From NCBI RefSeq assembly GCF_002115805.1, contig NZ_JFKC01000022.1, positions 1 through 64,000 of the forward strand: DNA of 64,000 nt, written 5' to 3'. The notes beneath the pieces were generated by a model. The model worked only from the letters and a program-made list of their open reading frames with translations, did not search any database and had not been told where the DNA came from. Below, piece by piece: positions 12,381 through 17,317 of this stretch. Origin of the DNA: Marivita geojedonensis. Lineage in GTDB: Bacteria > Pseudomonadota > Alphaproteobacteria > Rhodobacterales > Rhodobacteraceae. Each line of letters starts with the position of its first letter. Positions within the stretch are counted from its first letter, which is position 1. Both the position numbers and the translations under genes were made by a program.

Positions 12381-14447
12381 TCACACCCCGATGAAAGGCT
12401 GTTCCTCCGTGTGTTTCGGTGCGGTGCCGCAAACCAGCGGCACGCGGTAAGGCCCTGTTCTGGCGAGGGTTCGCGCGTCTGGTGTGATGCCGGGATAAAG
12501 CTCCGTAAAGCCCTGTCGCACGGGATGACCTGCGATGAAATTGAGCGCAATCAACCGTGTTGCAGTAGCCGCCGCAGCACTTGTGCCGATGATCCGCGCA
12601 CCTGAACCGGACAGCACGCCGATGGAGGGCAATCCCGGTCGGAACCACCCTTGATCGGCTGTGGCCGTCGCTGCTGGCAGGTTTGCATCAACAGCAGCAC
12701 CGCCCTGTGCGTCACGCTTGATCGACGCGCTGCCGCTATAGCCCGAAGGTTTGAGCGTGGACTGCATGTAGCCCGCGACGCGGAACACAGACGGCGCGGT
12801 GCCGATGCCATTGAGGCAGCCAAACCCGCGTACCGGAGTAAGAGCGGGCGGTTCGAACACCCGTGGCGGTGTCGGGTGGGACAGATCGACCAGATAGCTT
12901 TGCTGTCCACCCGTGCCGAGCTGCGTGGGGTCATCGTCGCGCTGCACCCAGACATCGAGATGTTCGCCTGCGCCAAGCGGATCGGCTGCGGTGTCGATGG
13001 TGATTGTCCATAACCCGACCGGCGTGCGCCGTCCCGCCCCCAGATTGCCCGCAGTCGGTATCATCGCCAGCATGACGCGCCAGCGATTGCCAAGATGTTT
13101 GTCTGCCGAAAGCTGGCCGATGTTCCTGCCGCCGGTCTCGATCTCAACAAAGCGGCGTGGGTCGCCGTCTTTGAGTAGGGGGTCCGCCTTGACTGCGATG
13201 CTCTGCTGCATGTCGGGCAGGTGTCCTGTAGGGGGCGTCACGGTAACAGTCCAGCCTTGCGGATCACGCCCGGGCGGTAGCCAGATTTCAAGATAACTCG
13301 ACGTGCGGTCATCGGGTTTGATCTGCCATCCAAAGCTGACAGCGCCGCCTTCCAGGTCACCGGCCGCAAACCGCGCGTGCATGTTGTTGGCGAAGTTGTT
13401 GCCCGTGGGCATGACCAGTTCCGTGCAGGGCTGAACCTTGCGCCGATCCGTGATCAGCGCCTCCACTGCGCGTTCGAAACTCGACCGCCCGTCATGGCGA
13501 TTGGCACTCCATCCGTAGCTGAAGTTGATCACCAGCGGGATCTCGGGGCAGTTGTAGGCCTGCGCGATCATGCGGGCGCGGTTGAAGATGTATTCAATCG
13601 CGCTGAGCATCATCATTTCCTTGCCAAAGCCTGACGTGTCCCAAGCGATGGTGTTCGGCAGTTGAACGGCGATCACCGCCGCATCGTCGGGCAGATCAGT
13701 GGCACCCACATAGGGGTCATTCCCGGCAGCAATCCCGGCGATATGCGCGCCATGGGTGGCGTGATGCATCAGCACCGTGTCCACCTCGGGCAGATCAGCG
13801 TCGATGGCATGGGCGGCCCTATAGGCGCGGACTTCCTGATCGCCGTATTGCGCGCGAAGCTGGTCGATCCGTGTGCCTGTGATCTCGCACCCAAAAGGAA
13901 CGGCGGCGGACGTATCGGCCCGCGCCGCCTGAAGCCAGCACAGGTTGATCCGTGTGGCACCCACCGCATCGCGGAAGGCGCGGTGCAGGAACGGGATGCC
14001 GTCGTCGATCACACCGATGATCACGCGGGGTTTGACCTTGGGCTTCTGCCATCCCTCCGGCGTGCCATTCGGATCATAACTCGCGGGCCAAGTCACCGGA
14101 TCAATCGGCATGTTGAGACGATAGCGTGTCCCGTTCAGCGCATGCAGGCAGCGGGCCAGCTCCGCGTCGTCCTGCGCCGGGTCGGAGTTTTCCGTCACCG
14201 ACTTGTTCCACATGGCAAAGGGTGTGATCTCTGGATTGTCTTTCCAAAGCGGCGGTATGCGGATTTCGACATCCGCCGTTCCCGCGATCATTCCTTCACC
14301 TTCCATCAGCGCGGTGATGTGGCTGGACGGCCCTTTGCGGATGGCGGGGAAGGCAAAGGGCCGCCCCAGATCCTCGGAAAAGATCCAGCGTTCATAGGGA
14401 CCGGTGTACTTGTCGATCCGTTCGTCATCATGGCGATGCGGGAACAT
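12381..14447 (-). CDS. S8 family serine peptidase (subtilase)
   Basis: The product is 688 residues. The triad is visible: Asp in GVIDDGI (about 148), His in HATHGAHIAGIAAG (about 232) and Ser in GTSAAAATATR (about 623). A long insert between His and Ser holds VINFSYGWS, PTGNNFANNMH and a beta-rich region. There is no signal peptide or pro-region of usual type, so it is either cytoplasmic or exported by another route. It starts three bases after the upstream PAP2-like gene and is the last of three genes. Targets could be its operon partners; that is only inferred from order. The gene has an unusually long spacing between His and Ser. Confidence 0.9.
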   Translation of the reverse strand: MFPHRHDDERIDKYTGPYERWIFSEDLGRPFAFPAIRKGPSSHITALMEGEGMIAGTADVEIRIPPLWKDNPEITPFAMWNKSVTENSDPAQDDAELARCLHALNGTRYRLNMPIDPVTWPASYDPNGTPEGWQKPKVKPRVIIGVIDDGIPFLHRAFRDAVGATRINLCWLQAARADTSAAVPFGCEITGTRIDQLRAQYGDQEVRAYRAAHAIDADLPEVDTVLMHHATHGAHIAGIAAGNDPYVGATDLPDDAAVIAVQLPNTIAWDTSGFGKEMMMLSAIEYIFNRARMIAQAYNCPEIPLVINFSYGWSANRHDGRSSFERAVEALITDRRKVQPCTELVMPTGNNFANNMHARFAAGDLEGGAVSFGWQIKPDDRTSSYLEIWLPPGRDPQGWTVTVTPPTGHLPDMQQSIAVKADPLLKDGDPRRFVEIETGGRNIGQLSADKHLGNRWRVMLAMIPTAGNLGAGRRTPVGLWTITIDTAADPLGAGEHLDVWVQRDDDPTQLGTGGQQSYLVDLSHPTPPRVFEPPALTPVRGFGCLNGIGTAPSVFRVAGYMQSTLKPSGYSGSASIKRDAQGGAAVDANLPAATATADQGWFRPGLPSIGVLSGSGARIIGTSAAAATATRLIALNFIAGHPVRQGFTELYPGITPDARTLARTGPYRVPLVCGTAPKHTEEQPFIGV

Positions 14448-14450
14448 GGC

Positions 14451-15575
14451 TCAGACCTTCTGCGCTTCGGCCACGGCCCCGGACCAGAGCCACGAAAAGG
14501 CAGGCTTGGCGGACAGTGTGGCGGTGGTGCCAGTCGTCGTCAGTCCCTTGGTCGCGGCAGTGACCGGATCGCGTTGATCTTCGCCGAAAAAGTCGTGATC
14601 CCCTGCGCTGTAGGCCAATTCCGCAACTGGTCCGCCTGTGCCAGCGCGGTTCAGCACAACCTGACCGACAATCCGGCCAAGCGCCGAACCCGCCCAGCTG
14701 TCGATCGGGTAATGAACACCCGCCACTGTCCGGTTCACGGCGATCCGTTCGGCCAGACCGCGCAGAGTCTTGATGCGCTGTTCGCCATCCGCAAGGCTGT
14801 CCCACGCCGCCACCAACGCTTCGAGGACAGTCAGCACGGCATAGGCCTCGGTCGCGTGGGCGGAGGGAAAGCTGCCATGGCCCGGTGTCGGGATCATCGG
14901 CATCAACCGTGCATCCAATTGATCGGGGCGGCGGATGGCAAGGTGGTTCTTCACGATCATCGCCGTGTGCGCTGCAGCGACCTGTGTCGCTGTGATCAAC
15001 TCGAACGTCTTTTTGTTCTGCGCGCTGTGCAATCCAAGCATCATCGCGAAATAGGCGGTGGGAAAACCCAGTTGCGACGTGATCTCGGCGCTGCGTTCGG
15101 CGCGCAGAGTGGCGTAATCCGACACCAACCGGCATTGCGACCGCAGCAGGTCGTTCGCCGGGCGATCCAGTGTCAGGAACGTTGTCCCGTCGAAAGACAG
15201 GGTCACGCGGTCGGGTGCGCCGCCAGTACCCACCATTGCGTCAGAACCTATGCCCGCAAGGTATTCGCTGACATAAAGCGATCCGCGCACCCATGTCGCC
15301 AGACCGGCAAGGTTGTTCGGGTCCGAGAACCCCAATTCCTTGTCTGTCGGCGTTGCTCCGTCCTCGGTCAGGTGACGCAACCCTTCGGCGGTGGTCTGAA
15401 GGCCCAGCGTTGTCGCGGGGTCATATCCACCAGGGTCTTCGCTGCCCAGGAAACCGCCGAGGCCGGTGAAGTTCGTTCCGCCGAAACCGCCAAACCCTCC
15501 GAAACCGCCAAACCCGCCGAAACCACCAAAGCCGCCGAAACCGCCAAAGCCTCCGAAGCCCCCATATTGTGCCAT
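14451..15575 (-). CDS. PAP2 / vanadium-haloperoxidase-like protein with GGF-repeat N-terminus
   Basis: The product is 374 residues. The acid phosphatase/haloperoxidase signature is complete: KX6RP (K209, R216-P217), FPSAHA (PSAH 237-240, where most lipid phosphatases have PSGH) and RTVAGVHYPID (R282, H288, D292). Family members remove phosphate from lipids or, with vanadate bound, oxidise halides. The core has few hydrophobic helices and looks soluble. The N-terminus is remarkable: MAQY is followed by nine GGF triplets (residues 5-31). An AAGGA lies 9 bases before the ATG. It is flanked in the same operon by the regulator (24-base gap) and the subtilase. Phosphatase or peroxidase activity cannot be told apart by eye. 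Confidence 0.88.
   Translation of the reverse strand: MAQYGGFGGFGGFGGFGGFGGFGGFGGFGGFGGTNFTGLGGFLGSEDPGGYDPATTLGLQTTAEGLRHLTEDGATPTDKELGFSDPNNLAGLATWVRGSLYVSEYLAGIGSDAMVGTGGAPDRVTLSFDGTTFLTLDRPANDLLRSQCRLVSDYATLRAERSAEITSQLGFPTAYFAMMLGLHSAQNKKTFELITATQVAAAHTAMIVKNHLAIRRPDQLDARLMPMIPTPGHGSFPSAHATEAYAVLTVLEALVAAWDSLADGEQRIKTLRGLAERIAVNRTVAGVHYPIDSWAGSALGRIVGQVVLNRAGTGGPVAELAYSAGDHDFFGEDQRDPVTAATKGLTTTGTTATLSAKPAFSWLWSGAVAEAQKV
15483..15563 (-). repeat. GGF-encoding tandem repeat
   Basis: Nine consecutive Gly-Gly-Phe codon triplets. Phe codons alternate TTC and TTT through the array, so the DNA repeat unit is 18 bases (two GGF) rather than 9. Glycine codons vary at the third base, so the protein repeat is conserved better than the DNA, which suggests selection on the peptide and not only recent slippage. 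Confidence 0.9.
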
Positions 15576-15599
15576 AGTGCTGTATCCTTTTTGAAATGC

Positions 15600-17240
15600 T
15601 CAGGAAATTCCCGCAACAGCCAGCGCTTCAAGAACCAGTTTGCCGGTTTTGCTGTCTGCAGAGGGGTGTGTCTTGCGATAGTCTTCAAGATTGAAATACG
15701 GGAACCGCCGCATCAGGTCCTGGGCGGTCTCTCGGGCTTCGCCCCCGCGGTCCAGCGCATGCAGTGCAGCAATGCGCGTGCGCAGGGTCGAGATGTGGCG
15801 GTCATTGGATTCAAGGGATCGGTCGGCCAGTTCCAAAGCCTTTTCGTAGTCGCCCCCGGCGAGGTGCGCCGAGCTTGCCAGACTGTCGAAGTAGTAGCCG
15901 AAGGGGTCGATCGGCGACAAGTCACGGGCCATTGTGGTGGCCCGGATTGCGGATTGGCCTTCGTCCCGGAATGCCATCAGCGACCCGCGCAACAGCCAGG
16001 ACAGGCTTTCGCTTGGGTTGATATCCTGCGCAGCACTGTAGCGGCGTTCCGCGACGTCCATGTTCTTGAGGATATTGCCGTTCACGAATCCGTCGATGGT
16101 CAGGCCAAAGCTCGATTGCGGGTCGAGGTCGAGCGCGCGGGCCGTGCAGTCGAGCGCTTTCTGTGTGTCGCCCTGCCGGTCCGTGCTGTAGTTCTTGAAC
16201 ACGCTCAGAACATACCATTTGCCAAGCCAGGCAAAGACGTGCGGATTGGCCGGCGCGCGGGCAGCGGCTTCGTCAAGGAACTGGCGGGCACGCAGAAAAT
16301 CCCCAAGCTTGGGGTGATGCATCGCCGTCGCCCCGGCGATCAGCAGTTTGTGATCCGGCAATTCGGGCAGGGGCGTTTGCCGTCCAGCGTGCAAGGTGGT
16401 TTCGGCAATGGCGCGCCCGACGGACTGTACCACATTGACCAGCCATCCCGATGCTTCCTGTGCGAAACTGCCAATCGGGCAGGACAGATGGCGGTTCCAA
16501 AGCAGCGTTCCGCTCTGAACGTCGGTGAAGTCGACATCGGCGATGAGCGTGTCGCCCTGGCGGCGCATTGCGCCCGTCAGCAGATAATCCACATCCAGCG
16601 TTTCGCGAACGTTCACGATATCGATGAACCGCTGGGACATGGCGCGGCCGGACAGATGCGAAATCACTGACAACAGACTGGAGCGCGACATCATGCGACT
16701 GGTTTCCTCGGCGATCCAGTCACCTGCGATGGCAAGCTCTGCATCCCCCGGCGGAACGGTCAGTGGCAGCGCACAGACCCGTGGCCGAATTCGGGTCGGG
16801 CCACGCTTGTTCGACATGAAGCACAGCGCCTTCACGGCACTTGGATCGGCGCGAATGCTGTCGCGCCATGTCACGAAGTTGGGTTCGCGTACGTTGAGGT
16901 CATAAAGAAACGGGCCGTCGGACGGATGACCGATCACCTTGACCCGCGACATGTCAATTTCGACTTCCTTGTTCGTGACGGTCAGGATCTTGTCGAAGTC
17001 CTCGCCGATCTTCTTGCGCAGATCCGAAAGCGCGCGGCGTAGGTTCTGGTGACCGCTTTCGTAATCGGCAAAGCCCCAGAGGGTCTCCTGAAGAAAGCTG
17101 CGTGACCTTCGGTTCAGAGGAGCCGTGACAAGAAGCGCGAACAGGGCGCGATGTTTCGCGCCCGTAATCTCGTCCGCTGGCGTGTCTGTGCGTCGCAGAA
17201 CGCACGAGCCAAACAAGGAAATTTCAAGCCCTGCCGCCAC
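15600..17240 (-). CDS. SARP-like transcriptional regulator with TolB-like and TPR regions
   Basis: The product is 546 residues, starting at GTG 17240 with GAGAGG upstream. Residues about 1-130 fit the winged-helix plus activator domain of SARP/BTAD proteins: ISLFGSCVLR, AKHRALFALLVTAP, ETLWGF, NLRRALSDLRKKIGEDF, then PFLYDLNVREPNFVTWRD. Residues 155-275 resemble the TolB N-terminal module seen in adenylate-cyclase-like regulators (DYLLTGAMRRQGDTLIADVDF, GTLLWNRHL). Residues 300-540 are TPR-type helices (ADRSLESNDRHISTLRTRI). It lies 24 bases upstream of the GGF-PAP2 gene and probably activates this operon. Two TTCACAC heptamers spaced like SARP sites lie upstream at 17300-17317. Confidence 0.85.
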   Translation of the reverse strand: MAAGLEISLFGSCVLRRTDTPADEITGAKHRALFALLVTAPLNRRSRSFLQETLWGFADYESGHQNLRRALSDLRKKIGEDFDKILTVTNKEVEIDMSRVKVIGHPSDGPFLYDLNVREPNFVTWRDSIRADPSAVKALCFMSNKRGPTRIRPRVCALPLTVPPGDAELAIAGDWIAEETSRMMSRSSLLSVISHLSGRAMSQRFIDIVNVRETLDVDYLLTGAMRRQGDTLIADVDFTDVQSGTLLWNRHLSCPIGSFAQEASGWLVNVVQSVGRAIAETTLHAGRQTPLPELPDHKLLIAGATAMHHPKLGDFLRARQFLDEAAARAPANPHVFAWLGKWYVLSVFKNYSTDRQGDTQKALDCTARALDLDPQSSFGLTIDGFVNGNILKNMDVAERRYSAAQDINPSESLSWLLRGSLMAFRDEGQSAIRATTMARDLSPIDPFGYYFDSLASSAHLAGGDYEKALELADRSLESNDRHISTLRTRIAALHALDRGGEARETAQDLMRRFPYFNLEDYRKTHPSADSKTGKLVLEALAVAGIS

Positions 17241-17299
17241 CTTAGCCTCTCTCGTTACGTGGCGTGATGCTAGCTTTGGTTGCCGCAGGAACCAAGCAG

Positions 17300-17317
17300 T
17301 TCACACTGAATTCACAC
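17300..17317 (-). promoter_or_regulatory. Tandem heptamer repeat, candidate SARP-type operator
   Basis: TTCACAC occurs twice (17300-17306 and 17311-17317) with a four-base spacer, so the period is 11 bases. SARP activators are known to bind direct heptamers with this period. On the minus strand the site is GTGTGAA, TTCA, GTGTGAA, 60-77 bases before the regulator's GTG; TAGCAT downstream could serve as a -10 element. Autoregulation is inference. Confidence 0.5.

Follow-up and report, generated by a model that had tools for sequence, protein, structure and literature searches.

The window analysed here comprises 64,000 nucleotides from the bacterium Marivita geojedonensis (Rhodobacterales; contig NZ_JFKC01000022.1, positions 1 to 64,000 of the forward strand), the genome of which measures 4.3 Mb. 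Its minus strand carries a trio of adjacent genes which encode, in this order, a regulator with a tetratricopeptide repeat (TPR) domain, a soluble enzyme of the PAP2 superfamily with a tandem tripeptide array at its N-terminus, and a subtilisin-like serine protease of family S8. The trio is a conserved module: the array is present in every relative kept in a scan of named genomes, and its repeating unit co-varies with the TPR groove of the regulator. At present its members are annotated as “winged helix-turn-helix domain-containing protein”, “phosphatase PAP2 family protein” and “S8 family serine peptidase”, or as hypothetical. A sequence-only reading had placed three genes on the minus strand between positions 12381 and 17317, separated by 24 and 3 bases, and the list of open reading frames (ORFs) agrees on the genes and their spacing. 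The far end of that span, however, lies past the regulator ORF, at the first base of a direct repeat upstream of it.

The regulator (15600..17240, minus strand; ORF 17240-15600) has 546 amino acids and a GTG start. Its ORF, Pfam matches, AlphaFold2 (AF2) model and fold neighbours point to an N-terminal winged-helix DNA-binding region of OmpR/CadC type (SARP-like), a TolB/CadC-like middle and a C-terminal TPR solenoid. The AF2 model, with a mean predicted local distance difference test (pLDDT) of 89.5, displays the TPR solenoid, TPR_2 is matched above the Pfam cut-off, and the CadC periplasmic domain is found among the fold neighbours, in line with the TolB-like module and TPRs proposed earlier. 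As to the SARP-type part of that proposal, Trans_reg_C is matched at 22.2 bits, below the cut-off of 26.2, and the BTAD domain has no Pfam match at E up to 1. The protein resembles CadC- and SARP-like regulators in its probable winged-helix region and its CadC-like neighbour, and differs from them in the missing BTAD match and in a groove which co-varies with the array of a partner. The solenoid and its C-terminal cap helix (residues 296-542; 15615..16355, minus strand), delimited by the AF2 helices and by the TPR ligand positions, at which co-varying columns are enriched, form the proposed array-binding groove. Control of the trio by this regulator is plausible from gene arrangement, the genes lying on the same strand in most systems and divergently in others.

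The middle gene (14451..15575, minus strand) encodes a protein of 374 amino acids with a PAP2 domain match above the Pfam cut-off. Its product starts MAQY(GGF)9GG, the (GGF)9-GG array occupying residues 5-33 (15477..15563, minus strand) with synonymous codons varied between units. Both this array and the complete KX6RP / PSAH / RX5HX3D signature, as noted before, are read in the sequence, the latter as K209-X6-R216-P217, P237-S-A-H240 and R282-X5-H288-X3-D292. Conservation was followed in 129 distinct trios, obtained from 141 by removal of copies with identical C-terminal 200 residues of the PAP2 protein; each trio needed a perfect array of at least 4 units and regulator and S8 matches of at least 100 bits within 4.5 kb. 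K209, R216, H240, R282, H288 and D292 are kept in 128/128 aligned rows (one row being gapped), P217 in 127/128 and S238 in 125/128. The fold is closest to that of class A acid phosphatases (Z 16.7-19.1; root-mean-square deviation 2.1-2.8 over about 200 residues), with lower values against vanadium haloperoxidases (Z 11.9-14.0). A haloperoxidase label was therefore dropped, while the chemistry is not settled by the fold. The enzyme shares its fold and K/R/H/R/H signature with both groups, including PhoN and PhoC, from which it is set apart by an N-terminal helical region, the array, and the apparent lack of a signal peptide, none being visible by eye on either the PAP2 protein or the protease. 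When modelled alone, the array is disordered (residues 1-37, pLDDT < 50), as would be expected of an unbound ligand. At residue 239 the motif reads PSAH in 40/128 rows and PSGH in 88/128, and Ala accompanies arrays of GG-X units in 39 of the 40; shared ancestry or a functional link may lie behind this tie.

The third gene (12381..14447, minus strand) encodes a subtilase of 688 amino acids with a Peptidase_S8 match above the Pfam cut-off. The intact Asp-His-Ser triad claimed for it is found as D148, H232 and S623, together with N350. Across the trios the triad Asp is kept in 126/127 (one Glu), His in 127/127 and Ser in 127/127, two rows being gapped at each, and the oxyanion Asn in 129/129. The best NCBIfam match is the germination protease family CspBA, at 39.9 bits far below the cut-off of 1250, and the two sequence matches in the PDB are likewise germination (Csp-type) proteases. 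The trio protease may be likened to these S8 enzymes by its best matches, unlike which it belongs to a different operon. As the catalytic residues of both the PAP2 enzyme and the protease are nearly invariant, neither enzyme looks like a relic.

The distribution of the trio was approached from two of its genes. An alignment-based scan for the PAP2 protein in named genomes kept the best 80 of 368 relatives, so that a count of 80/80 speaks for the closer relatives. These loci belong to Rhodobacteraceae, Roseibium, Bradyrhizobium, Methylobacterium, Kiloniella, Hydrogenophaga, Variovorax and Polaromonas, among others, and the trio is recurrent across Proteobacteria. A regulator profile matches 77 of the 80 loci, upstream of the PAP2 gene in 76, and an S8 profile matches 78, the three regulator and two S8 misses lying at contig ends. 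The three genes are thus neighbours elsewhere, a point on which the sequence-only reading had made its operon depend. Locus L142 holds two PAP2 genes, with the regulator upstream of the first, and genes of the trio are split over two ORFs in some loci (e.g. L094, L096, L134, L145). Starting from the protease, 75 of 292 genomes of the order were matched at E up to 1e-10. Forty of these places were examined with their flanks and 39 have a PAP2 gene, the exception being L072; in L036 and L070 the contig ends within the protease gene. Among 19 further protease places a PAP2 match is present in 16, in one of them (L221) in broken pieces, and is absent beside the proteases of L216 (909 amino acids), L220 (904) and L222 (714). 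In a phylum-wide sample the PAP2 family is found in 22 of 398 genomes, distant array-tagged relatives having been sampled rather than exhaustively counted. Plasmid copies in Phaeobacter, Microvirga and Bosea keep the same three genes in differing, unrelated surroundings. A phage origin was rejected, the PAP2 protein having no match in 50,697 phage records; viral contigs gave 14 weak, partial PAP2 matches, the N-termini of which were not inspected. A defence origin was likewise set aside, as the three window proteins match 0 PADLOC families at E up to 1.

An N-terminal tandem oligopeptide is present in all 80 scan loci, in 76 by script and in L096, L133, L142 and L144 by inspection of reading frames; in L096 the frame of the array is not that of the ORF, and the contig start truncates L133 and L144. 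The units in these loci include GGF, GGL, GGI, GGV, GGA, GGT, SGV, TGV, AGV, SGT, NGA, NGL and QGL, as well as HGI, HGL, HGM, HAS, TAM, QAT, EGV, SGD and GGE, with NAY, NAQ, NAE, GKM and SGR in other fetched loci. Units of other lengths also occur, of four residues (SGGA, SGGL, GGYS), two (SG, in L142) and five (GGGGA, in L071), and more distant systems contribute NWE, DAR, QQS, NGK, GKE, GPQ, NK and more. In total, 62 cyclic unit types were counted in the 129 trios, one of which (L136) is a wrong-frame reading of GGL. Among 24 more distant places, those of a phylum-wide sample, the array is missing only from L205, a secreted-type acid phosphatase with no regulator or S8 match. The distant PAP2 homologues L198, L203 and L204 have an internal rather than N-terminal (NK)n array and a TPR regulator beside them, and L203 and L204, the two checked, have a divergent S8 gene. 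Perfect runs are 4 to 17 units long at their longest (median 8), and interruptions are seen in 8/129 arrays when both sides of the longest run are counted, or 6/129 on the far side only. As a control, other ORFs of at least 150 amino acids in the same loci, mechanically derived in six frames, were searched for a perfect array of at least 6 units starting in the first 60 residues; none was found in 2841 such ORFs, or in a non-overlapping subset of 1282. Because of this control and the recurrence of the trio across Proteobacteria, the array is not regarded as chance.

The DNA beneath the arrays bears on their origin. Summed over 101 arrays, neighbouring units differ by 2031 nucleotides; shuffling of codons within each array gives 1766 +/- 22, and the observed value is reached in 0/500 shuffles. 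Exactly identical adjacent units are as common (48/845) as in the shuffles (47), so that the codon effect does not come from identical units as such being avoided. Peptide units which are nearly uniform within each protein, written in varying synonymous codons, point to selection on the peptide and on its uniformity. Neutral slippage of a functionless 9-bp repeat would fit the shifts in copy number on Phaeobacter plasmids, where strains and species carry 5, 6 or 7 NSF units, yet we consider it barely credible: a uniform peptide with codons more different than in shuffles already contradicts it, and the retention of the array in all scan loci and the periods of 2, 4 and 5 residues speak against it. 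Among close relatives of the window the entire array can change from GGF to GGL. Such uniformity within proteins, coupled with change between lineages, would be expected of a ligand read by a receptor itself built of repeats. A tail for self-assembly or condensate formation, the uniformity of which would be structural and the lineage differences drift, could also be envisaged for a low-complexity sequence that is disordered in the model. This seems very improbable, given that the units, some acidic, some basic and some aromatic, have no chemistry in common and that a correlated change in the regulator’s groove would not follow from drift; the genome also holds no second GGF array, which counts solely against a partner bearing that tail. 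An adaptor model, with a second protein bearing the same array, was rejected on the same search, since three consecutive GGF codons occur in the source genome only at the trio (7 overlapping matches); the pattern read backwards, as a control, gave 3 matches on the reverse strand.

Co-variation between the array and the three proteins was assessed in the 129 trios. The pairwise tests were limited to pairs with more than 25% identity and to columns of at least 70% occupancy, with correction for overall similarity. In a test on unit composition, which is free of any choice of register, regulator residue 385 ranked first among 1418 columns of the three proteins (r = 0.51), followed by protease H318 (r = 0.35). 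In the window this residue is F385, encoded at 16086..16088 (minus strand), and it is the best tracker of the array unit by association, by contrasts on volume and by parsimony. Phe occupies the position in 51/54 GG-X systems and in 2/75 others. Two codings affect these counts: L128 was re-read from GGH to HGG after its Val385 had been seen, the figures as first coded being 51/55 and 2/74, and L136 (F385) was coded VAW, whereas its DNA, ahead of a masked stretch, encodes MSIL(GGL)n in a different frame, and with L136 as GGL the counts would be 52/55 and 1/74; the association tests used the original L136 coding. Leu, Met or Ile is found in 23/29 systems with units starting in Ser, Thr or Ala, and Val in 5/5 with units starting in His, one of them the re-read array. 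Read from sequence, the relation is one of size complementarity, a small unit residue going with a large residue of the presumed pocket.

Independent contrasts on a tree built without the regulator gave r = -0.505 (p = 1.2e-8) between the volume of the first unit residue and that of residue 385, which is the best of 1453 columns for the volume property. By parsimony, 8 of 10 changes to or from F385 share branch and direction with a gain or loss of GG-X, against an expected 0.52, the best result of 1294 columns; the unit changes number 14 in the first coding or 13 with L128 re-read. Random placement of the changes gave at most 4 coincidences in 20,000 draws. On the regulator’s own tree the coincidences are 9 of 10. 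Runners-up included A239 of the PAP2 protein (5/7) and, on the regulator tree, its W95 (7/15).

In co-crystals of HOP, positions 2, 5, 6, 9, 12 and 13 of the TPR contact peptides, according to Magliery and Regan (PMC1261162). In a frame set by conserved residues, F385 is position 9 of one TPR, a concave-groove position. Mean association at the TPR ligand positions is 0.10 (0.08 when the frame is set by AF2 helix starts) against about zero elsewhere, an enrichment with p = 5e-7 for the conserved-residue frame, 7e-5 for AF2 helix starts and 6e-4 with the first TPR added. It is reached by 0/33 shifted frames in any of the three framings, and survives the exclusion of residue 385. Within the 54 GG-X systems the third unit residue is tracked best by S457, which again occupies position 9 but in a different TPR, with protease A629 and PAP2 S99 lower in that ranking. 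The position of T488 is Ala in 15/15 GGI/GGV systems and that of V536 is Trp in 9/9 GGA systems, shared ancestry contributing to both. Residue 532 (T532 codon 15645..15647, minus strand) lies in the cap helix after the last TPR of the AF2 model; among the closest relatives of the window it is Thr with GGF in 6/6 and Ile with GGL in 4/4, and across all trios Thr532 is found in 12/16 GGF and 0/11 GGL systems.

Several observations weigh against a groove which reads the array. Exceptions at residue 385 are L188 (GGI with Leu), L151 (GGA with Met), L148 (GGE with His) and L131 (SGA with F385), and at residue 532 GGF is found with Val, Ile or Ser in L059, L155, L206 and L108. Several close GGF/GGL pairs are unchanged at the six canonical TPR positions and differ only at 532. 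High-ranked columns also lie elsewhere, namely protease H318 and G150 and PAP2 W95 in the register-free test, and PAP2 A239, W95 and F171 by parsimony, so that protease H318 and G150 may follow the array too. Contrasts on hydropathy and charge put other columns, in all three proteins, first or level: PAP2 E243 leads for the third unit residue (p = 3e-9), with regulator L460 next (9e-9), and protease F33 and PAP2 G50 are among the leading columns for charge. These columns are suspected to reflect rare events on short branches. Charge complementarity was dropped as evidence since the contrasts on charge do not single out one protein but favour columns in all three; Fisher tests at regulator columns 470, 349, 311 and 324 were suggestive, with similar p-values in PAP2 columns. 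Lastly, the unit register and the TPR frames were chosen after F385 had been seen, a concern answered in part by the first test being register-free and by the shifted-frame control.

The prominence of H318 and of G150, close to the catalytic D148, in the register-free test also invites the view that the protease is the main reader, with the array as its private substrate, co-evolving specificities, and a secondary co-variation in the regulator. The protease does adjoin in nearly all loci. However, mean association over its columns is 0.002 against 0.098 at the TPR groove positions, and its best columns for co-change reach 4/22 or 5/28 against 8 or 9 of 10 for F385. Two distant systems bear on the same question. 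In L201 and L202 (L201:4970-5935, L202:6552-7622) a Peptidase_A4-fold protein stands in place of the S8 protease (by Pfam for L202, the L201 homologue being 38% identical), and a nucleotide-cyclase domain replaces the regulator’s DNA-binding region (by Pfam for L202, by eye for L201), while the TPR protein and the array-bearing PAP2 enzyme persist, which fits these two as a recognition pair. The canonical catalytic Glu of the A4 family seems to be Gln in both proteins, which may thus lack a catalytic residue. On this count the third gene may in some systems act otherwise than by proteolysis, a further point against the account given below. Of 149 genomes of the family concerned, only the one from which the A4-type gene was taken has it at E up to 1e-20; a second, more distant A4-type homologue is present in L201. 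Locus L200 has a regulator and an array-PAP2 gene, with no S8 match. Taken together, we regard the protease as a decidedly doubtful main reader; the reader of the array is probably the regulator, judging from the aligned sequences. The protease, proposed in the sequence-only reading to process or clear the GGF protein, would be the obvious agent for cutting an exposed array and so, probably, for severing the link between enzyme and regulator.

A regulator reading a neighbouring peptide recalls the peptide-sensing TPR regulators of the RRNPP type, such as Rap, PlcR and NprR. Both have a DNA-binding region and a TPR domain thought to bind the peptide of a neighbouring gene; in both, diversity of the ligand goes with diversity of the receptor, and a subtilisin-like protease belongs to the scheme. 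It could accordingly be supposed that the protease chops the array into short peptides, a multi-copy signal which the regulator would sense in RRNPP-like fashion, with the units as pherotypes. The operon would then supply receptor, repeated peptide and protease together, and uniform, lineage-specific units following the receptor would be natural. Against this, an intact, near-invariant enzyme carries the array and has no signal peptide visible by eye, the longest perfect runs have a median of 8 units, and co-variation extends over several TPRs and into the cap helix, as a long ligand would explain better than a single tripeptide. We therefore think a peptide signal unlikely. Membership of the RRNPP group is not claimed, the trio differing in its long uniform array, in its OmpR/CadC/SARP-like DNA-binding region and in its proteobacterial hosts.

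The explanation we favour, with moderate confidence, is that the TPR superhelix of the regulator binds the array as a lineage-specific password which ties the enzyme to its own regulator, the binding being suggested by the co-variation. The disordered N-terminal array of one short peptide, mostly of three residues, would be held in the concave TPR groove, the side chains of its units packing on residues 385, 457, 461, 488, 491, 532 and 536 as numbered in the window protein. Each lineage would have its own unit and a matched groove, a private password coupling one enzyme to one regulator. With the array held by the regulator, enzyme and transcription would be tied together, and the adjacent protease, by severing or degrading the exposed array, would switch this coupling and change the state of the complex. 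In a bolder form, to which we would give an even chance, the arrays are natural peptide barcodes, in which the uniform polymer of each of dozens of lineages is decoded by a matched TPR superhelix, possibly unit by unit, differing barcodes insulate coexisting modules, and the protease resets the system.

Insulation may be considered in genomes with more than one system. In the seven cases read, where two systems share a genome or contig, the units differ in 7/7: GGF/NAE (L059/L062), GGF/NAE (L056/L181), GGV/GKM (L044/L066), GGI/GKM (L038/L069), TAM/QGN (L060/L214), TAM/NAL (L054/L227) and SG/AYS (L142); more genomes had two protease matches. Most of these pairs come from distant branches, so that they lend mild support to insulation. 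In L142 two array-PAP2 systems, (SG)n and (AYS)n, adjoin each other (L142:5500-12744).

There is a parallel in protein design, where designed repeat proteins bind tripeptide repeats by superhelical matching (Wu 2023, PMC10115654). The likeness lies in a helical-repeat groove, a tandem tripeptide ligand and uniform units. Those proteins are artificial, unlike the trios, which are proposed to form a natural set with dozens of units, possibly in a one-to-one register.

Some features around the trio should also be mentioned. Upstream of the regulator an 11-bp-period direct repeat, GTGTGAATTCAGTGTGAA (17300..17317, minus strand), was compared in an alignment with 7 close relatives and is a candidate operator. 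The pattern GTGTGAA-N4-GTGTGAA (17317-17300) is perfect in the window only, the 7 relatives having GTGAA-N6-GTGTGAA or near it in its place. A family-wide operator was rejected, the 11-bp direct repeat not being enriched in 117 upstream regions (6 at offset 11, 10 at offset 9). A fixed accessory gene was rejected as well, flanking clusters being clade-limited only (animal haem peroxidase, LCAT-like, PatG-like S8); many ORFs in these clusters are mechanical and may not be genes. A gene similar to animal-type haem peroxidases follows the trio, either at once or at a short distance, in L080, L081, L082, L086, L091, L044 and L131 (some Rhodobacteraceae, and Pelagibius), identified by Pfam An_peroxidase in the three scanned (L080, L044, L131) and by similarity or eye in the rest. 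A second S8 gene follows the trio in L037, L038, L094 and L098; that of L098, the only one scanned, lies about 0.33 kb downstream and has PatG_D and PatG_C domains of the cyanobactin macrocyclase type. In L194, on a plasmid of Phaeobacter inhibens M647, the PAP2 gene has 1080 bases instead of 1170 and the ORFs at the regulator and protease places are annotated as hypothetical, perhaps a decaying copy. In L197 (Paracoccus zhejiangensis plasmid pPZ01) the trio is rearranged, near the type VI secretion gene tssH and a gene for a calcium-binding protein, and its array has one SGQ variant among SGH units.

In the open-access literature searched, no paper was recognised as describing the trio or its arrays. 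If the proposed explanation is correct, the family would provide a large natural set of matched pairs of oligopeptide and helical-repeat groove, with about 60 units in 129 trios. It would be a natural counterpart of a protein-design problem, the sequence rules of which could be read directly. It would also represent a new way of linking enzyme and regulator, by means of a private polymeric tag, and would assign a function to three genes now annotated only by domain or as hypothetical.

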